Positions 17,743 to 29,302 are shown, numbered from the stretch's first letter. The stretch is 37,389 nucleotides of DNA from Deltaproteobacteria bacterium (GCA_023265595.1 JAHFSU010000021.1:1-37389); one strand, 5' to 3'. A program made the numbers and translations. The notes: generated by a model not told the origin, from the sequence alone.

Positions 17743-20535
17743 ATGTCTGAAGAATTACCCAAAGCCTACGAGCCACAGCAGGTTGAGAAAAAGTGGTACG
17801 ATTTTTGGCTTAAGAAAAATCTCTTCAAGGTCGATCCCCAATCGAAAAAAAAACCGTTTTGTATTGTCATGCCTCCTCCCAACGTGACAGGGGCCTTGCA
17901 CATGGGCCATGCGCTGAACCATACGCTTCAAGATGTTTTGATCCGATGGAAACGGATGCAAGGTTTTGAAACTTTGTGGCAGCCCGGGACCGACCATGCC
18001 GGCATCGCCACACAAAATGTGGTGGAAAAAGAAATTTTGGCCAAAGAGGGAAAAACTCGCCACGATTTGGGACGCGAAGCCTTGATCGAAAAAATTTGGG
18101 GTTGGAAAGAGCAATATGGCGACCGGATTTTGAAACAGTTGCAGGCGCTGGGGGCGAGCTGTGATTGGTCGCGCACGCGGTTTACTTTGGATGAAGGGCT
18201 CTCACGCGCGGTACGCGAATGTTTTGTCGCTTTGTATAAAAAGAAGCTGATCTATCGCGGAAATTATATTGTCAACTGGTGTCCTCGCTGTCAGACCGCA
18301 CTGGCTGATGACGAGGTGGAGCATGAAGAGAAAAAAGGACATCTTTGGCATATTCGGTATGGCAGTTTGATCGTGGCGACCACGAGGCCGGAGACGATGC
18401 TGGGCGATGTGGCCGTGGCGGTGAATCCTAAAGACAAGCGCTACTCAAAGCTCATTGGCAAAACAGTCGTGCTGCCGGAAGTCGGCCGCGAAATTCCGGT
18501 CATTGCTGATCATTTTGTCGATCCGAAATTTGGAACCGGTTGTGTGAAGGTAACGCCGGCCCACGATCCCAACGATTTTCAGATGGGGCTTCGGCATCAA
18601 TTGCCGCAGATCAATGTGATGAACGCCGATGCGACAATGCACTCAAACGTGCCGGAAAAATATCGGGGGATGAAGCGGGAAATCTGCCGCAAACATATTG
18701 TGGAGTCGTTACAAGGACAAGGACTCATCGAAAAAATTGAAGAACACACCCATTCTGTGGGTCATTGTTATCGCTGTAACACAGTGATTGAGCCGTGGCT
18801 CTCCGAACAATGGTTCGTAAAGATGAAACCGTTGGCCAAAAAAGCAGTGGCCGCAACGCGGAAAAAGAGAGTGCGATTTTTTCCGAAACGCTGGGAAAAA
18901 TTTTATCTCTCGTGGCTTCATGAAGTCCGCGACTGGTGTATTTCGCGGCAGATCTGGTGGGGTCACAGGATTCCGGTCTGGTATTGTAGTACGCTCGGAC
19001 TCTCGGACTCTTGGACTCTCGGTTGTATGAGCGAGCGCACGAGCGTCCGAGCGTCCGAGCGTACGAAGTGTCCGCCGATTGTGGCGATTGAGACGCCGAA
19101 AAAATGTCCCAAGTGCGGCGGAAAAAATTTGCGCCAAGACGAAGACGTTTTGGATACTTGGTTTAGTTCTGCCCTCTGGCCCTTTTCCACATTGGGTTGG
19201 CCGGACAAAACACCCGCACTCAAGAAATTTTATCCCAACAATGTCTTGATCACCGACCGTGGCATCATCTTTTTTTGGGTGGCGAGAATGGTGATGATCG
19301 GTTTTGAGATGATGAAAAAAGAGCCGTTTCGTCATGTCCATATTCATGGAACGATTCTCGATGAATTGGGCCAAAAGATGTCGAAGAGCCGGCCGGAGAC
19401 CTGCATCGACCCTATCGATATCATCAACAAATATGGCGCCGATGCGTTGCGCTATTCGCTTTTGCTTTTGGCGACCGAGGGGCAGGATTTGAAACTGGCC
19501 GAATCAAAATTTGATACCGGAAAACATTTTTGCAACAAACTTTGGAATGCAACGCGGTTTGCCCTGATGCATCTCAAAAATTATGATGGCAAACCGGATA
19601 GCGAAGCCAATTTGACATTAGCCGACCGATGGATTTTTAATCGTTTGCAGACAGCCGTGCACTCTATCAACATGGCGCTGGAAAATTATCGTTATATTGA
19701 TGGGGCACAAACCCTTTACAAATTTATCTGGAACGAGTTTTGCGACTGGTATCTGGAATTGATTAAGCCGATTGTTGCCGACAACCATGCCACACAATGG
19801 AATCTGCATCGTGTTTTGGAAACGATTTTGAGACTGGCGCACCCTTTTTTGCCTTTTATTACCGAAGAGCTTTGGCAAGCCCTTCGACAGAGCTCAGGGC
19901 GAACGGTAACCACCGGTCATGGTGAGCTTCATAGAACCGGTCATGGTGAGCTTCATAGAACCGGTCATGGTGAGCTTGTCGAACCATCACTTGTGGTTGC
20001 GGCATATCCCAAACCATTGACAAAAATTCCGTTTGTTAAAGAGGCAACGGAGATGATGCTCATTCAAACGGTCGTGACGGCTGTTCGCAATTTGCGGGGG
20101 GAACATGGTGTCTCCCCTCGCCAGAAAATTCAAGGGTTCATCCATGTCGCCTCAAAAAATAAACGAAACATTTTGATGAAAAACCAAAATGATCTCAAAG
20201 AGCTTGCCCAAATTTCGGAATTGCAATTTATTGAGGTTTCTCAAAAGCCGGAGCGGACAGCCGTTGCCGTGGCCGGCGACATTGAAATTTATGTCCCGAT
20301 GCAGCAGCTTTTTGATGTGGGGGCTGAACGAGAGCGGATCGGAAAAGAGATTACCAAGACGCGGCAGGATGTGGCCTCATTTGAGGGAAAACTTGCCAAC
20401 AAAAATTTTGTGGACCGGGCGCCGAAGGAAATTGTCGAAAAGGAGCGCGCCCGCTTGCAAGAACACAAAGAGCGTTTGCAAAAATTGGAATCGGCATTAA
20501 ACTCTCTCTCCCTTGAGGGGAGAGGGGAGGGGTGA
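17743..20535 (+). CDS. valS: Valyl-tRNA synthetase with repeat-derived insertions
   Basis: ValS, 930 residues, charges tRNA-Val. Class I marks are HMGH (53-56) within PPNVTGALHMGHAL and KMSKS (545-549); the editing domain begins near WCPRCQTALADDEVEHEE, and a C-terminal coiled coil is present (ERERIGKEITKTRQDVASFEG...). ATG 17743 is the first credible start. Three stretches are foreign to the family and coincide with DNA repeats: 25 residues at 417-441 (TLGLSDSWTLGC...SERT) that split a CxxC zinc motif; about 34 residues near 715-748 with GHGELHRT repeats, just before the tRNA-binding helical domain; and the last ten residues (LSLEGRGEG type). All keep the frame, so the gene is probably functional. 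It overlaps or abuts nadC. Confidence 0.96.
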   Translation: MSEELPKAYEPQQVEKKWYDFWLKKNLFKVDPQSKKKPFCIVMPPPNVTGALHMGHALNHTLQDVLIRWKRMQGFETLWQPGTDHAGIATQNVVEKEILAKEGKTRHDLGREALIEKIWGWKEQYGDRILKQLQALGASCDWSRTRFTLDEGLSRAVRECFVALYKKKLIYRGNYIVNWCPRCQTALADDEVEHEEKKGHLWHIRYGSLIVATTRPETMLGDVAVAVNPKDKRYSKLIGKTVVLPEVGREIPVIADHFVDPKFGTGCVKVTPAHDPNDFQMGLRHQLPQINVMNADATMHSNVPEKYRGMKREICRKHIVESLQGQGLIEKIEEHTHSVGHCYRCNTVIEPWLSEQWFVKMKPLAKKAVAATRKKRVRFFPKRWEKFYLSWLHEVRDWCISRQIWWGHRIPVWYCSTLGLSDSWTLGCMSERTSVRASERTKCPPIVAIETPKKCPKCGGKNLRQDEDVLDTWFSSALWPFSTLGWPDKTPALKKFYPNNVLITDRGIIFFWVARMVMIGFEMMKKEPFRHVHIHGTILDELGQKMSKSRPETCIDPIDIINKYGADALRYSLLLLATEGQDLKLAESKFDTGKHFCNKLWNATRFALMHLKNYDGKPDSEANLTLADRWIFNRLQTAVHSINMALENYRYIDGAQTLYKFIWNEFCDWYLELIKPIVADNHATQWNLHRVLETILRLAHPFLPFITEELWQALRQSSGRTVTTGHGELHRTGHGELHRTGHGELVEPSLVVAAYPKPLTKIPFVKEATEMMLIQTVVTAVRNLRGEHGVSPRQKIQGFIHVASKNKRNILMKNQNDLKELAQISELQFIEVSQKPERTAVAVAGDIEIYVPMQQLFDVGAERERIGKEITKTRQDVASFEGKLANKNFVDRAPKEIVEKERARLQEHKERLQKLESALNSLSLEGRGEG
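18991..19065. repeat. 75-bp palindromic insertion of 8-mers inside valS
   Basis: The left arm is four tandem 8-mers (ACGCTCGG, ACTCTCGG, ACTCTTGG, ACTCTCGG; 18991-19022). The right arm is four inverted 8-mers (CGAGCGCA, CGAGCGTC twice, CGAGCGTA; 19032-19063). Together they form an imperfect hairpin. The length is exactly 25 codons and begins on a codon boundary, so the frame is kept. Removing it joins TGT-AGT to AAG-TGT, giving a CSKC zinc motif. Confidence 0.85.
19881..19986. repeat. Palindromic/tandem repeat inserted in valS
   Basis: The left end CCTTCGACAGAGCTCAGGGC and the right end (GGTGAGCTTGTCGAACC) are inverted copies of the widespread TTCGACA-GCTCA-type repeat. Between them a 24-bp unit starting CCGGTCATGGTGAGCTT occurs twice in full (19913-19936, 19937-19960) plus a third variant. 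It is read in frame as repeated TGHGELHR. Confidence 0.85.
20502..20531. repeat. CTCTCCC-TTGA-GGGGAGAG repeat at valS/nadC junction
   Basis: A hairpin-forming repeat (CTCTCCC paired with GGGAGAG across a TTGAG loop) followed by GGGGAGGGG. It resembles the CCCTCCCCCTTGATGGGGGA-type arms at 26.4 kb. It encodes the last ValS residues, and its G-rich end supplies both the context of the ValS stop and a Shine-Dalgarno for nadC. Confidence 0.7.
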
Positions 20536-20537
20536 GA

Positions 20538-21392
20538 GTGGATTACAAAAAAATCATTAAAGAGGCGTTGGAAGAAGATATCGGCACTGGCGACATCACC
20601 ACCGATGCCGTCATCGGCCACAAAACTAAAGCTTTGGCCTCGATCAAAGCGAAGCAAGATTTGGTGATCGCCGGTCTGGAGATTGCAAAGAATGTCTTTG
20701 CCGTTTTGGATCCGAAATCCGAATGGAAAACCCTGCGCGACGACGGCGATTTTGTGAAACGAGGGACCCTTTTGGCAACCGTGGAGGGCTCTGCCGCCGC
20801 TATTTTAAAGGGGGAACGGACGGCGCTTAATTTTTTGCAGCATCTTTGTGGCATTGCCACGCTCACAAGGCAATTTGTCGACGCGATAAAAGGGACCAAA
20901 GCCAAAATATTGGATACGCGCAAAACGATTCCCGGCTGGCGGGAGCTTGAAAAAATTGCGGTCAAAATGGGGGGTGGTCATAATCATCGCGCAGGATTGT
21001 ATGACCGCTATCTTATCAAAAATAATCATATCGACATGGCGGGTTCCATTGGGGCGGCGATTGAAAAAGTTTTGACCCTTCGACAAGCTCAGGGTGAGCG
21101 GGGTTCAAAGCAGCAGGGTCTATTGGTTGAAGTGGAGGTACGCAATTTTGAGGAGCTGAAGGCGGCGCTTCAATATCCAGTCGACATCGTTTTGTTCGAC
21201 AATTTTGAACCCGAAGCTGTGCGGGGGGCGATGCGCTTGTCCCACGGCAAGGTGAAGTTTGAGGTCTCGGGGGGAATTACATTAGAAAATGTTCGCCTCT
21301 ATGCCGCGACCGGCGTTGATTTTATTTCAGTAGGGAGTCTAACCCACTCCGCTCCCGCGGCAGATATTCACCTAACCGTCATCCCGACGTAA
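20538..21392 (+). CDS. nadC: Nicotinate-nucleotide pyrophosphorylase (quinolinate phosphoribosyltransferase)
   Basis: NadC, about 284 residues, converts quinolinate and PRPP to nicotinate mononucleotide, CO2 and pyrophosphate in NAD synthesis. Family segments: EEDIGTGDITTDAVI, GERTALNFLQHLCGIATLTR, KILDTRKTIPGWRELEK, the GGGHNHRAGLYDRYLIKNNH phosphate/quinolinate-binding region, and SVGSLTHSAPAADIHL at the end. The GTG at 20538 is preferred because GGGGAGGGG lies just upstream; an alternative GTG at 20532 overlaps the valS stop. Residues near 181-189 (LRQAQGERG) come from an inserted DNA repeat between a helix and the VEVEVRN strand. The last residues and the stop codon come from another repeat. 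No nadA or nadB is in the window. Confidence 0.95.
   Translation: MDYKKIIKEALEEDIGTGDITTDAVIGHKTKALASIKAKQDLVIAGLEIAKNVFAVLDPKSEWKTLRDDGDFVKRGTLLATVEGSAAAILKGERTALNFLQHLCGIATLTRQFVDAIKGTKAKILDTRKTIPGWRELEKIAVKMGGGHNHRAGLYDRYLIKNNHIDMAGSIGAAIEKVLTLRQAQGERGSKQQGLLVEVEVRNFEELKAALQYPVDIVLFDNFEPEAVRGAMRLSHGKVKFEVSGGITLENVRLYAATGVDFISVGSLTHSAPAADIHLTVIPT
21077..21100. repeat. TTCGACAAGCTCAGGGTGA half-element inside nadC
   Basis: A single arm of the TTCGACA-AGCTCA repeat family, beginning CCTTCGACAAGCTCAGGG, lies within nadC and is translated as LRQAQGER. Related arms are at 19.88 kb in valS and 29.15-29.30 kb between sucC and sucD. Confidence 0.8.
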
Positions 21393-22954: not shown

Positions 22955-23713
22955 TTATTTTGTTACATCGTTTTTAGCAAATAATTTTTGCCAAAATTTG
23001 GCAATGGGGTCGTAGAAGCGGCTGACGACGCGCTCTTTCAGGGGGATGATGGCATTATCGGTAATGGTGATATGTTCCGGGCAGACTTCGGTGCAACATT
23101 TGGTGATATTGCAAAGGCCGATGTGAAAAGCCTCTTTGATGAGACTCAAACGGTCTTCCACATCCAGCGGGTGCATCTCCAGAGAAGCGAGCCGCACCAA
23201 AAAACGGGGCCCTGCAAATTCCTCTTTTTTGTGATTGCGCAAAACGTGGCAGACATTTTGGCACAAAAAACATTCGATGCATTTTCTAAACTCCTGCACG
23301 CGGTCGGCATCTTCTTGACTAAAGCGCCAAGTACCATCAGCCAAAGGGGCCTTCGGTTTAAAGGGAGGAATTTTTTTATTAATTTCAAAATTCCATGAGA
23401 CGTCACAAACCAAATCTTTGATGACCGGAAAGGTCTTCATCGGCTCTACGGTGATCGGCTTGTCGAGCGGCAAGGTGTCCATTCGGGTCATACACATGAG
23501 TCGCGGTTTACCATTGATTTCGCCGCCGCAAGAACCGCATTTGCCTGCCTTGCAATTCCATCGAACCGCGAGTGTATTGTCCGCGGTGGCCTGAATATGA
23601 TGGATGGCATCCAACACAACCATCCCTTCGAAAAGCGGGACGTCGTATTCTTTATATTCCCCGCCTTTTTCGTCGCCGCGAAAAACTTTTATTTTCGCTG
23701 TTTTCTCGCTCAC
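22955..23713 (-). CDS. sdhB: Succinate dehydrogenase iron-sulfur subunit
   Basis: SdhB, 252 residues, carries electrons from FAD of SdhA to the membrane anchor. The [2Fe-2S] ligands are C54, C59, C62 and C74 ([15 protein letters not shown]...LMC). The second domain has [11 protein letters not shown] (145-155) and [14 protein letters not shown] (201-213), fitting the [4Fe-4S] and [3Fe-4S] clusters. The N-terminal [25 protein letters not shown] style and the following text resemble Sdh1-type enzymes known from mycobacteria. The start is a GTG that overlaps the sdhA stop (GTGA), preceded by GAGGG. It is the third gene of sdhC-sdhA-sdhB-pckA. Confidence 0.95.
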
Positions 23714-25506
23714 GTTGTACCCTCTTTGATTAATATTTCTAATGCAGCCGGCATTTTGGGTAGCGGCTCTTTCTCGACTCTCATCTCTTCCCCTTTTTTG
23801 CGGAGAACAAAATTAAATTTTGCATATTCGGCACTGCTTTCCGGATAATCAATCCGTGTATGCCCCCCGCGCGATTCCTTTCTCTCCATGGCGGCGCGGG
23901 TTATGGCTTCCGAAACAATCAGCATATTTTCCAAATCGAGACAGGTCTGCCAGCCGGGATTATAGGTACGATCCCCCGCCGCTTTCACATTTTTCACTTT
24001 GGATTTAAGTTGTGCCAAAGAATCGATGGCCTTTTGCAATTCTTTTTCTTCGCGCACAATGCCGACATGGGCATCCATCATTTTTTGCAGCTGATCCATT
24101 ACTTCATATGGATTTTCACCATTTTTTTGATTAAAGGGTTTCAGTAGTTCTGTTGCGCATGTATCCAATTGTTTTGTGTCTGCTTTGATGGAAGAATTTT
24201 CTTTTGCATATTGTGCGGCACCAAGGCCGGCGCGCCTTCCAAACACCAACAAATCGGATAACGAATTGCCGCCAAGGCGGTTGGCGCCGTGCAATCCGGC
24301 CGCCACTTCACCGGCGGCAAAAAGTCCCGGCACCGTTGCGGCGCCGGTTTCGGCATCGACCCGAATGCCACCCATAATATAATGACACGTCGGCCCAATC
24401 TCCATCGGTTCTTTGGTGATGTCGACATTCGCCAACTCTTTGAATTGATGATACATGCTCGGCAGTTTTTTCCTGATTGTTTCGACGTCGCGTTGCGAAG
24501 CGATATCCAAAAAAACACCGCCGTGCGGAGAACCGCGTCCCGCTTTGACTTCTGCATTGATTGCCTTGGCCACCACATCTCTTGTCAACAATTCCGGCGG
24601 TCTGCGCGCACTTTTGTCGCCGGCAAGCCAGCGCTTAGCCTCTTCTTCTGTTTCAGCAAATTCTCCTTTGAACATGGGAGGGACATAGCGAAACATAAAG
24701 CGCTCTCCCTTGGAATTTTTTAAAATGCCCCCTTCGCCGCGCACCCCTTCGGTGACAAGGGTCCCTTTAACACTCAAAGGCCAAACCATGCCGGTCGGGT
24801 GAAACTGCACAAATTCCATATCCATTAAATCAGCGCCGGCCTTGTAAGCCAATGCTTGGCCATCGCCGGTATATTCCCAAGAATTGCTGTTGATCCGAAA
24901 CGATTTGCCGATGCCGCCGGTTGCCAAAATAATTGCCTTGGTTTTGAAAAATAAAAATTCGCCGGTTACGCGGCGGTATCCAAAGGCGCCGCAAATTTTA
25001 TTTCCCTCTTTCAAAAAATGGGTGATCGTGCATTCCATAAAAACTTCGATATTTTTTTGATGGACGGCATGATCTTGCAATGTTCGGATGATTTCGAGGC
25101 CGGTCCGGTCGCCGACATGGGCGAGTCTTGGGAACTGATGGCCGCCGAAATTTCTCTGTAAAATTTTTCCCTCTTTGGTTCGGTCGAAAACGGCCCCCCA
25201 TGCCTCCAGTTCATTAACACGGGCCGGGGATTCCTGCGCATGGATTTGCGCCATGCGCCAGTTGTTGAGCATCTTGCCGCCGCGCATCGTATCGCGAAAG
25301 TGGACTTGCCAATTATCGCGGAGATCGACGTTGCCCAATGCCGCCGCCACGCCCCCTTCCGCCATCACGGTGTGGGCTTTTCCGAGGAGTGATTTGCAGA
25401 CAAGGCCAACCGTTGCACCTTGAGTGGCGGCTTCAATTGCCGCACGCAGCCCCGCCCCGCCGGCGCCGATCACAATCACATCGTGTTCAAAAGTTTGATA
25501 GTTCAT
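23710..25506 (-). CDS. sdhA: Succinate dehydrogenase/fumarate reductase flavoprotein subunit
   Basis: SdhA, 598 residues, oxidises succinate to fumarate with covalently bound FAD. It has the dinucleotide-binding GAGGAGLRA (14-22), a candidate flavin-linking His45 in KAHTVMAEGGVAAALGN, the substrate-domain HVGDRTGLEIIRTLQD, the FHPTGMV segment and GGNSLSDLLVFGRRAG near the C-terminal part. The segment HFRDTMRGGKMLNNWRMAQI and QRNFGGHQFPRLAHVGDR are as in the Sdh1 class rather than in the E. coli-type enzyme. The start codon directly follows the sdhC stop (TAGATG, no gap). Direction (succinate oxidation or fumarate reduction) cannot be fixed from sequence alone; Sdh1-type enzymes are known for succinate oxidation. 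Confidence 0.96.
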   Translation of the reverse strand: MNYQTFEHDVIVIGAGGAGLRAAIEAATQGATVGLVCKSLLGKAHTVMAEGGVAAALGNVDLRDNWQVHFRDTMRGGKMLNNWRMAQIHAQESPARVNELEAWGAVFDRTKEGKILQRNFGGHQFPRLAHVGDRTGLEIIRTLQDHAVHQKNIEVFMECTITHFLKEGNKICGAFGYRRVTGEFLFFKTKAIILATGGIGKSFRINSNSWEYTGDGQALAYKAGADLMDMEFVQFHPTGMVWPLSVKGTLVTEGVRGEGGILKNSKGERFMFRYVPPMFKGEFAETEEEAKRWLAGDKSARRPPELLTRDVVAKAINAEVKAGRGSPHGGVFLDIASQRDVETIRKKLPSMYHQFKELANVDITKEPMEIGPTCHYIMGGIRVDAETGAATVPGLFAAGEVAAGLHGANRLGGNSLSDLLVFGRRAGLGAAQYAKENSSIKADTKQLDTCATELLKPFNQKNGENPYEVMDQLQKMMDAHVGIVREEKELQKAIDSLAQLKSKVKNVKAAGDRTYNPGWQTCLDLENMLIVSEAITRAAMERKESRGGHTRIDYPESSAEYAKFNFVLRKKGEEMRVEKEPLPKMPAALEILIKEGTT

Positions 25507-26387: not shown

Positions 26388-26550
26388 CCAGAATTCGTCA
26401 GCAAAAATTCCCTCCCCCTTGATGGGGGAGGGTTAGGGAGAGGGTGAACATCACCGACCGGGTGAGATCATTTTCAAGATCACCCTCCCCCCAACCCCCT
26501 CCCATCAAGGGAGGGGGAAAAGTAAGAAAAATTTCAGTGACGAATTCTGG
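26388..26550. mobile_element. 163-bp MITE-like nested palindromic element
   Basis: The outer terminal inverted repeats CCAGAATTCGTCA (26388-26400) and TGACGAATTCTGG (26538-26550) are perfect over 13 bp. Inside are inverted, G/C-rich 39-nt arms (26409-26447 beginning TCCCTCCCCCTTGATGGGGG; 26480-26518), which can pair for most of their length around a 32-nt loop. It has no coding capacity. It fills most of the 304-nt gap between sdhC and the HExxH gene; the remaining 26263-26387 holds the sdh promoter region. The arms resemble the valS/nadC junction repeat. Confidence 0.7.
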
Positions 26551-26566
26551 CTATTTTCAACAATCA

Positions 26567-27931
26567 TTAGTAGTAGAAAAGTTGGGCGCCGAGGCGGGCT
26601 TCGTCGTAGCCGTCGAGGGTCCCGTCGGCTTGATGGGTCCCCAGTTGCGCCCCCAATATATAGCCGGCAAAAACCGAGAGGCCTAATCTTTGAGTCACAT
26701 CGATATCAAGATGAAACTCCAAATCGAGACGGCCGCCTCCCTCGATATTGCCTGAGCCCCTCTGATATCCGGCATAAATAGCGGGGGCTATTTTGGTAAA
26801 AAGATGATCGGAGAGATGGCCATAAAAACCAAAATCGGCGCCGATTTTTGTGTCGGTTTCGATTTTGCTTTTTTCCTCTCCGCCAAAGGCGTGCTCCGCA
26901 AATAATTGAGACCGAAAGGCACCATCGGTCGTATGGGCGAGATCATTTCGGTAATCGAGTGCCTGTTCCAAAGAGGTGCGGAAAAGGCGACTGTAACCAA
27001 GAGTTTGGCGGTTGAGCATGCTATCTATTTTTTCGGCATATTCTCCGGCGGCGCTTTTTCTGATTGTTTCTCCTTCGATGTCAGCCATTACAGTTAGAGT
27101 TGATAATCCGGCCGGCAGATAGAGGAGTCTCTCCTGCAAATTGAGTTCGGTTCCATTTTCAAAATGGAGTGTATCGGAATAGCGACGATAAGTTTCTTGA
27201 ACATAATTTTGGTATTGCACCGTAAAATTGGGATCATTCGTTGCCTTTTGAATTCCATTATTGATTACCTCTAAAGTCTTTACCGCTTTTCTGCCAATCT
27301 CTTCCCCACCCGTCAAAACGATTGTCACCGTATTGGAGAGATAGTATTCCATTCTTCGTTTTTGACCGGCTAGAAAAATAACCTGCCTTGCCGGATCTAA
27401 ACCTTGTTCTATGAAAGCCGTATAGTAGTCTTGTGCATAAAGATAAGCCTCCAATTCTATGGTGGGCGAATCTCCAGAGGTGTTGAGATATTTTTGAAAG
27501 CTCATGGACAAAGTGTCGGAGGCCTCCGGGTTGGCCAAGGCACATTGCAGGTTGCAGGCATCGGGATTCAAATTGTCCGATTGGGCAATATTTCTCCAGC
27601 GGGCCTCGTTTTGGAGTTGGTGTCTAAATTCATGGGCCATGATCAACTCCAAATCCCAGTCTTCCGAACCGGCCGCAACGCCAACCAACATTTCATTGGT
27701 CGGCAAGACGCCGGCCAGTGCCATATCGGCTAAAAAACGCCCGCCATAATGAATAGACCCAAAATTTTGAGGATTCATCCCCCTTTGCCGCATCCTCAAC
27801 AAAACATTATCTATTTTTTGAGCGTAACTTGGAGAGACATCAATGTCTCGATAGAGAATGGCTCTGGCGTCATCTATTGTATCCAAGGAAATGGCCGTTT
27901 GGGCCGACTTATTTACCTTTACATCACCCAT
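26567..27931 (-). CDS. HExxH metallopeptidase-like protein with beta-barrel-like C terminus
   Basis: A 454-residue protein that I cannot assign to a named family. [15 protein letters not shown] carries an HExxH zinc motif (H100-E101...H104). A downstream [12 protein letters not shown] (E159/E161) could give the third, glutamate ligand, as in gluzincins. The middle is helical. The last 100 residues alternate polar and apolar residues in Gly/aromatic-rich strands ([21 protein letters not shown]) and end in [10 protein letters not shown], like the C-terminal beta-signal of outer-membrane proteins. Oddly there is no Sec signal at the N terminus ([17 protein letters not shown]). The ATG lies 7 nt after a sigma28-like -10 box, implying a leaderless mRNA or a later start. 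It is a single gene, divergent from sucC. Confidence 0.75.
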
Positions 27932-28005: not shown

Positions 28006-29178
28006 ATGAAAATCCACGAATATCAGGCAAAAGAGTTACTCACCCAGTTTGGAGTTTCCATTCCGAAGGGGAAGGTTGCGGCCACCGTTAATGAGGCCAA
28101 AACGGTGGGGCAAGAGATCGGTTTTCCGGTCGTCGTCAAGGCGCAAATCCATGCCGGTGGCCGTGGCAAAGGCGGCGGCATCAAAGTGGCCAAAACGATG
28201 CAAGAGTTGGAAGCCGCCGCAGAAAACATTTTGGGGATGACGCTCATCACCCATCAAACAGGGCCTGAAGGAAAAAAAGTCAAAAAAGTTTTGGTTGAAA
28301 AGGCTTCTCAAATTGTCAAAGAATTTTATTTAAGCGTTGTTTTGGATCGGGCTAAATCGCAACTTGTCATGATGGCCTCTCCGGAAGGGGGTGTCGAGAT
28401 TGAAGAGGTGGCGGCCCGCTCTCCTGAGAAAATTTTCAAGACATGGATCGATCCGGTTGTTGGATTACAGGCTTATCAGGCGAGATGGCTTGGGTTTAAA
28501 CTCGGCTTCGAAAATGCGTTCATTAAAAAATGGCAGCAGTTGGTAACGGGTTTGTATCGTTTTTATGTCGCCACCGATGCTTCGCTCGCCGAAATCAATC
28601 CGGTGGTGCTGACAAAAGAGGGGGAGCTTTTTGCGCTGGATGCCAAAATCAATTTTGATGACAACGCCCTTTTTCGCCATGCCGATATCGCCCAACTGTT
28701 GGATCCCGATGAAGAGGATCAAAACGAACTCGAAGCCAAAGAGCACAATTTAAATTACATCAGCCTCAACGGAAATATCGGCTGTCTGGTGAATGGCGCC
28801 GGGCTTGCGATGGCGACGATGGATATTATCAAACTCTCCGGCGGCGAGCCGTGTAATTTTTTGGATGTCGGCGGCGGGGCCACACAAGAAACGGTGACGG
28901 AGGCCTTTAAAATTATTTTGCAGAATGTAAAAGTGAGGGCGATTTTTGTCAATATTTTCGGCGGCATTTTGAAGTGCGATCTGTTGGCATTAGGCATTGT
29001 GGCGGCGGCAAAAGAATTGGGAGTCAAAGTGCCGCTGGTGGTCCGTCTGCTCGGTACCAACGTGGAACAGGGAAAAGAGGTTTTGAAAAAATCGGGTTTG
29101 AATATTATTAATGAGGATGATTTTGCTACAGCGGCAACGGTCGTGGTTCGACAGGCTCACCATGACCGAACGTCTTGA
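28006..29178 (+). CDS. sucC: Succinyl-CoA synthetase beta subunit
   Basis: SucC, 390 residues, forms with SucD the enzyme that converts succinyl-CoA, phosphate and ADP/GDP to succinate, CoA and NTP. The start at [12 protein letters not shown] is the invariant family N terminus; the open frame upstream is spurious and overlaps the divergent gene's promoter. The ATP-grasp domain ([45 protein letters not shown]) and the C-terminal CoA-ligase domain ([34 protein letters not shown]) are complete. The last nine residues (RQAHHDRTS) are not native: they are translated from a DNA repeat that also provides the TGA stop. Only a weak promoter (TTGTCA-N17-TAAGTG) and no Shine-Dalgarno are visible upstream. 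Confidence 0.96.
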
Positions 29179-29302
29179 GCACCATGACCGAACGTCTTGA
29201 GCACCATGACCGAACGTCTTGAGCACCATGACCGAACGTCTTGAGCACCATGACCGAACGTCTTGAGCACCATGACCGGTCATCCTGAGCCTGTCGAAGG
29301 AT
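29145..29302. repeat. Palindromic element with five 22-bp tandem repeats between sucC and sucD
   Basis: Inverted ends (GGTTCGACAGGCTCACCATG on the left; CATCCTGAGCCTGTCGAAGG on the right) enclose five identical 22-bp units (29161-29270; unit begins CATGACCGAACGTCTTGAGC) plus a partial sixth. The left end lies within sucC and supplies its last codons and stop. The right end carries AAGGA (29297-29301), correctly spaced as the sucD ribosome-binding site. Confidence 0.9.

Follow-up and report, generated by a model that had tools for sequence, protein, structure and literature searches.

How does a palindrome built of short repeats come to lie, in frame, within an essential gene for an aminoacyl-tRNA synthetase, and what brought it there? 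The question is raised by valS in a contig of a Deltaproteobacteria bacterium (GCA_023265595.1, JAHFSU010000021.1:1-37389); the whole stretch analysed, 37,389 nt in length, is referred to here as the window. The genome of the window is designated G000 and that of a sister species in the same genus G001, while other G numbers denote further genomes of the class.

A Hairpin in the Zinc Loop of Valyl-tRNA Synthetase

The product of valS has Thermus thermophilus ValRS (1gax) as its closest PDB match and shares 81% identity with the ValRS of G001. It is encoded by the sole ValRS gene seen in G000, where the next match is just 28% identical, as expected for a sister synthetase. The insert that interrupts it (Table 1) is an inverted repeat of degenerate octamers, with 33-nt arms that are 82% complementary and enclose a 10-nt loop. 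The valS frame stays open through the whole hairpin, and this copy contains no ORF of its own. The hairpin has a predicted folding energy of -52.4 kcal/mol compared with a shuffled mean of -31.1 (z = -5.9; 0/200 shuffles as good), and a stronger palindrome was found in just one other 1-kb tile of the window (~26408-26519) when all tiles were scored identically. A search of Rfam with the insert gave no credible match; a known RNA family was rejected, the search having returned nothing beyond a sub-threshold chance match.

Table 1. Coordinates of valS, its presumed zinc ligands and its repeat insertions in the window.
Feature	Position	Strand	Description and basis
valS, valyl-tRNA synthetase	17743..20535	+	930 aa, ATG at 17743; Pfam tRNA-synt_1, Anticodon_1, Val_tRNA-synt_C
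Cys codon, first presumed zinc ligand	18985..18987	+	directly 5' of the insert; invariant column in alignments
Octamer hairpin element	18989..19065	+	net 72 nt, in frame, between two GTACG repeats
Left arm, CTCGGACT-type octamers	18989..19021	+	inverted-repeat search
Hairpin loop	19022..19031	+	10 nt
Right arm, CGAGCGTC/CGAGCGCA/CGAGCGTA octamers	19032..19064	+	pattern matches at 19032, 19040, 19048
Cys codon, second presumed zinc ligand (CPPIV)	19069..19071	+	downstream of the insert; alignments
Second presumed zinc ligand pair, C-P-K-C	19105..19116	+	sequence and alignments; both Cys invariant
Second repeat insertion in valS, unrelated, CCCTTCGACA...GGTCATGGTGAGCTTCATAGAACC repeats	19880..19986	+	sequence; predicted disordered

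The size of the insert can be read from relatives. The two presumed ligand codons that flank it are 81 nt apart, or 27 codons, while members of the same family have 9 nt at this position (C-GAS-C in G003, C-TKK-C in G004 and C-AKK-C in G005), followed by PPIV as in G000. The net insertion is therefore 72 nt, equal to 24 codons or nine octamers. An initial annotation of this DNA had proposed a palindromic insertion of 75 nt, or 25 codons, whose exact removal would restore CSKC. The palindrome is real, built of 8-mers and in frame, but its net length is one codon shorter by comparison with same-family relatives. The flanks (AG/TACG...GTACG/AAG) lead to a predicted empty state of C-S-T-K-C rather than CSKC, and the loop of relatives is likewise C-x3-C; outside this class, the usual state of the zinc loop is C-x2-C. 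A 5-nt direct repeat, GTACG, lies at either end of the insert (18989-18993 and 19061-19065), which also has terminal inverted repeats, its ends reading GTACGCTCG...CGAGCGTAC. GTACG at both ends belongs to the palindromic ends (GTAC), and because the ends of the element are themselves palindromic no clean target-site duplication can be called.

An AlphaFold model of the protein is confident overall (mean pLDDT 86), with values below 50 at residues 419-438 (the octamer insert), residues 719-743 (the second repeat insert) and the final five residues. The octamer insert is thus predicted to form a disordered loop on an otherwise ordinary ValRS. The second insertion, which encodes the peptide TGHGELHRTGHGELHRTGHGELVEPS, makes the protein 29 aa longer than those of other class members at that point. 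Repeats also occur elsewhere in the window. A tandem 24-nt repeat (GAGCACCATGACCGAACGTCTT) that looks related to the TTCGACAAGCTCAGG palindrome family spans the end of sucC and the sucC-sucD gap (29150-29300), and within nadC a TCGACAAGCTCAGGGTGAGCG-type repeat encodes a stretch of LRQAQGERGSKQQG (21065-21115). The strongest palindrome of the window, with arms of ~42 nt (CCCTCCCCCTTGATGGGGGAGGGTTAGGGAGAGGGTG and its inverse), lies at 26408-26519, upstream of the gene at 26567-27931.

A Dispersed Family of Octamer Hairpins

The valS insert belongs to a dispersed family of short hairpins, in which the stem consists of two inverted arrays, (CKAGMGYM)n. The two-octamer pattern CKAGMGYMCKAGMGYM matches 42 times in G000 and 24 times in G001, compared with 0 and 1 for a reversed control, and between 0 and 2 matches in each of 58 other genomes. 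The family occupies about 13-14 loci in G000 (one of which, C65, is weak) and 9 in G001. Most copies are at gene junctions, where they often separate a ribosome-binding site or a stop codon from the adjoining gene. Four copies are coding: those in valS of G000 and G001, one in rnr of G000 (KQALFSKTSARAPERPSVLEEM), and one in a gene of G001 that we presume to be alaS, recognised from ...RVIADH.... The rnr gene of G003 lacks the octamer insert.

In valS of G001, the same octamer family (CKAGMGYM) is found at the same codon and in frame, with a net length of 87 nt and a different order of units. The simplest reading is a valS insertion common to G000 and G001, with later turnover of the array; alternatively, the two genomes could have acquired their insertions independently. 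Elsewhere, sites are often empty. The octamer site at G000:C35:10515-10596 is empty in G001, G004 and G005, and G003, G004 or both have an empty site at the positions of C40, C70, C57 and C10 of G000. Another repeat kind occupies the same gap of G001 at C10, C38, C55, C57, C70, C1a and C1b, and also lies inside rnr, indicating that the same places are targeted repeatedly. The valS insert is specific to this genus, and at many of the family's other sites relatives have either no insert or a different repeat.

These observations bear out the idea, put forward in the initial annotation, of a selfish palindrome that entered an essential gene in frame. The uninterrupted short zinc loop that it expected is seen in same-family relatives (C-x3-C), which outside the genus lack the 25 residues in question, and copies of the 8-mer palindrome are scattered through the genome and found in other coding genes (rnr in G000; presumed alaS in G001).

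The ValRS Zinc Loop as a Recurrent Target

The octamer family is not alone in entering this loop. Repeat-type inserts of several unrelated kinds are present in the zinc loop of 10/39 class members in which the loop could be read: the octamer CKAGMGYM in G000 and G001, an inverted octamer GTACGTTN in G026, an inverted heptamer GGGACCN in G031, inverted GTGGATN/CCATCCN in G022, GACCTTA in G040, AAAGACT in G041, GTAGGGGCGA in G027, and, by inspection only, GAAGCAG in G019 and CCCCTCCCTTAA in G020. Five of these kinds (those of G000/G001, G026, G031, G022 and G027) are dispersed in the genome that carries the insert and seldom or never occur in the other genomes searched; the exceptions are G017, where the G027 kind is also common, and G026 and G001, where the G031 kind matches weakly. 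The inserts of G040 and G041 match arrays around PF05635 genes of their own genomes. In 69 ValRS sequences from outside the class, none of which has a repeat-type insert in the loop, 26-31 residues separate the first Cys from DVLDTW, compared with 38-57 residues in the ten insert carriers; the zinc loop is enlarged in 14 of the 29 class members aligned. The ValRS zinc loop is thus a hotspot that unrelated repeat families have entered in several lineages.

PF05635 Genes and Their Flanking Arrays

The octamer family also occurs in a larger form that includes a gene. At G000:C55, octamer arrays at 23428-23483 and, inverted, at 23873-23904 bracket a 118-codon gene (element 23428-23906) that matches PF05635 (E = 2.6e-39) and TIGR02436, and the neighbours of this element are nearly adjacent in G001, G003 and G004. 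PF05635 is the family of four-helix-bundle (S23/IVP) proteins encountered in intervening sequences of 23S rRNA. G001 has a four-helix-bundle gene at a different locus (C165:3882-4312), likewise between inverted octamer arrays. In both genomes the array beside the PF05635 gene is of the same family as the valS insert.

Period-7/8 arrays, usually inverted, are associated with PF05635 genes across the class. In a sample of 45 PF05635 genes from 12 genomes, inverted flanks (local score >= 13) were found for 22/45 genes compared with 10/333 control genes (Fisher 6e-16), some of the controls being taken from loci that themselves carry arrays; about half of the PF05635 loci have no clear inverted pair. 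Arrays of period 7/8 accompany 29/45 of these genes and 52/333 controls, with no significant enrichment of other periods. The array unit tracks the lineage of the PF05635 protein and not the host (Mantel r 0.52 between genomes; 0/2000 permutations), a signal carried mainly by few close protein pairs. For example, related PF05635 proteins have the unit ATTTTC[CT] in common in G011, G027 and G001, and the unit GGACCAN in G001 and G005; the remaining PF05635 genes of the same genome have different units.

The valS inserts can be compared directly with these flanks. Scores of 21-29.5 were obtained against PF05635 flanks of the same genome for G000, G001, G026, G040 and G041, compared with mostly 6-14.5 against those of other genomes, except for G000 and G001, which have a family in common. 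No own-genome PF05635 flank matching the ValRS insert was found for G022, G019 or G031, and the inserts of G020 and G027 are other repeat kinds.

The association extends to plasmids. Arrays were found at 18/21 plasmid PF05635 genes, and inverted arrays at 12/21, compared with 3/34 and 0/34 for control genes; this sample comes mostly from cyanobacteria, with Gemmatimonadota, an Azospirillum and a Riemerella also represented, and includes near relatives. The heptamer arrays on these plasmids we take, from their period and form, to be the short tandem heptamer repeats (STRRs) of cyanobacteria. PF05635 was not found in 14 control genomes. A viral home for the four-helix-bundle gene was considered and rejected, none having been found in viral contigs.

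Several individual loci merit description. A divergent PF05635 subgroup (L297, L306, L308, L319, L331 and L332, in G031, G040 and G011) consists of back-to-back pairs, mostly lacking clear 7/8-mer arms. Similar-looking junctions in two genera, L182 (G001:C165) and L312 (G005:C143), each contain a four-helix-bundle element; its arms are octamers in the former and GTTCTTG heptamers in the latter, and these junctions are apparently a second recurrent target site. Two Nostoc plasmids (L347 and L353) have a conserved gene (WP_104899637.1) in common, with a four-helix-bundle gene on one side of it in one plasmid and on the other side in the other, which suggests separate insertions. In L358 (Picosynechococcus), L343 and L344, array-flanked four-helix-bundle genes are located within CRISPR-cas operons (cas10/cmr3; cas6/cas4).

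Origin of the Insert

We consider it probable, at roughly 70%, that the valS insert is a copy, without the ORF, of a hairpin element that resembles intervening sequences and is mobilised via a four-helix-bundle system. The full-length element would be a four-helix-bundle gene between an array and its inverted counterpart, akin to the intervening sequences of 23S rRNA but residing within protein genes and in the gaps between them. Lacking an ORF, the valS copy would be a derivative mobilised in trans, in the way that REPs are believed to rely on RAYTs, and the four-helix-bundle protein may act as a specificity factor that recognises the hairpin and so may drive its spread. Because S23/four-helix-bundle proteins are not known to act as nucleases, transposases or reverse transcriptases, we only infer the mobilisation step. 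Once in place, an insert with a net length divisible by three in a permissive loop would be tolerated. Arrays of period 8 (or 7) can be read in all frames because the period is not a multiple of three, and this property, together with the lack of stops in the valS copy and the loop site, accounts for tolerance within the gene.

Other origins can be weighed against the same evidence. If the insert were a selfish palindrome of a generic kind, comparable to the Rickettsia palindromic elements, then four-helix-bundle genes would be merely one landing place among many; the in-frame insertions in valS, rnr and presumed alaS fit such a view, as do the arrays at the many junctions where no PF05635 gene is present. 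We nevertheless regard it as unlikely, given that inverted arrays bracket PF05635 genes far more often than other genes and that, across genomes, the array unit goes with the lineage of the PF05635 protein. Mobilisation of a REP/REPIN-like element by a RAYT (Y1 HUH transposase, PF01797) would be in keeping with the hairpin form, the dispersed copies and the many intergenic sites, and Y1_Tnp genes are present in 14/16 genomes, with five in G000. However, 0/5 of the G000 genes are at an octamer array, and the units are tandem octamers and not a single tagged palindrome. Moreover, G003 and G040 have no Y1_Tnp match yet contain array-flanked PF05635 genes, and G040 also has a valS insert, although its evidence is limited by a genome that is only 83% complete. 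With Y1_Tnp genes away from the octamer arrays and missing in G003 and G040, we reject this highly improbable candidate.

Replication slippage or template switching could have built the palindrome in place, and octamer number and order at the valS site do differ between G000 (72 nt) and G001 (87 nt), so that slippage clearly reshapes the arrays. As the sole origin it has very little probability and is rejected: it is contradicted by the presence of a degenerate octamer family at >10 unlinked sites and by empty sites in relatives, and the valS inserts of G026, G031, G022 and G027 match repeats dispersed in their own genomes. It is more doubtful still that the insert is an adaptive feature of ValRS, such as a tuned zinc loop. 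Enlargement of the loop in 14/29 aligned class members might be expected of such a feature, but the inserts of different lineages show no relation in sequence or length and reflect the repeats of their own genomes, the insert is predicted to be disordered, and many class members keep a short loop. An assembly artefact has a negligible chance of being correct; the window does come from a draft genome of 70 contigs, but the family occupies the same valS codon, again in frame, in a second assembly from the genus (G001).

Returning to an element mobilised via a four-helix-bundle system, a broader proposal is possible, which we offer tentatively and with somewhat less than even confidence. The 7/8-mer arrays found across phyla, including the cyanobacterial repeats and the valS insert, may be termini or ORF-less derivatives of one mobile hairpin superfamily whose sole gene is S23/four-helix-bundle, which moves without a known transposase, with a preference for gene junctions and for protein loops that tolerate insertion, the ValRS zinc loop among them. 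The function of S23/four-helix-bundle proteins and the origin of heptamer and octamer arrays, two orphan puzzles, may then be one. Each protein lineage would bring its own array unit, yielding candidate protein-hairpin pairs. The ValRS loop is a natural insertion trap: many different kinds of repeat have entered this essential gene in frame, which allows repeat families and their activity to be read from a single conserved gene.

Comparison With Known Systems

Palindromic DNA in frame within protein-coding genes is best known from Rickettsia palindromic elements (RPEs), where a new surface-loop peptide is tolerated (reviewed in PMC10969869). The analogy with RPEs drawn in the initial annotation captures the effect, an in-frame palindrome in an essential gene, and the octamer family resembles RPEs in its presence in several coding genes (valS, rnr and presumed alaS) and its dispersal in the genome. 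The two are set apart by description: RPEs are ~100-150 bp and have family-conserved peptides, while the insert has 72 nt, tandem octamers and no conserved peptide. The analogy also misses the link with four-helix-bundle (S23/IVP) genes and short-period arrays, which points to a closer relationship of the insert with 23S rRNA intervening sequences and cyanobacterial heptamer repeats.

Heptamer arrays have been described in two other settings. Cyanobacterial STRRs are short tandem heptamer repeats, and the P6b stem of the Nostoc trnL intron is built of complementary repeat copies (PMC4476775). Period-7 arrays similarly bracket plasmid PF05635 genes of Nostoc, Calothrix and Anabaena; by contrast, the valS unit has 8 nt and its host is not a cyanobacterium, although other genomes of the class have 7-nt arrays. 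In the papers searched, no link of STRRs with a protein gene was found. The TAACTGA heptamers of Beggiatoaceae also form arrays, but these are direct repeats, abundant just upstream of start codons, for which a regulatory role has been proposed, and the S23/four-helix-bundle gene is not mentioned in that work (PMC4679880). Our literature search, which had partial coverage and does not prove novelty, found no paper joining S23/four-helix-bundle proteins with heptamer repeats.

Among mobile elements, MITEs have terminal inverted repeats, as does the valS insert, but PF05635, and not a transposase, is the sole gene seen between octamer copies. REP/REPIN-RAYT systems combine small dispersed hairpins with rare full units in which a gene lies between two inverted copies (PMC2817692, PMC3116915), an arrangement matched by the octamer family. 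They differ in that the gene here is PF05635 and not a Y1 transposase, that no single GTAG- or CGTC-tagged palindrome is present, and that some genomes with arrays have no Y1_Tnp.

The 23S rRNA intervening sequences (IVS) of Coxiella and Leptospira are selfish stem-loops with complementary borders, some copies of which carry an S23/four-helix-bundle ORF, and they recur in the same permissive rRNA helices, 9, 25 and 45 (PMC4990558). The valS insert similarly has complementary ends and an extended stem-loop, and full-length copies at G000:C55 and G001:C165 have a PF05635 ORF in the loop. Recurrent insertion at one site is likewise common to both, in rRNA helices in one case and the ValRS loop in the other. 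On the other hand, IVS reside in rRNA and are excised by RNase III, while the octamer copies lie in valS, at gene junctions, in rnr and in presumed alaS, and the octamer and heptamer stems consist of tandem units. REP/RAYT units are the nearest logical parallel to the octamer family, and IVS with an S23p ORF its nearest precedent.
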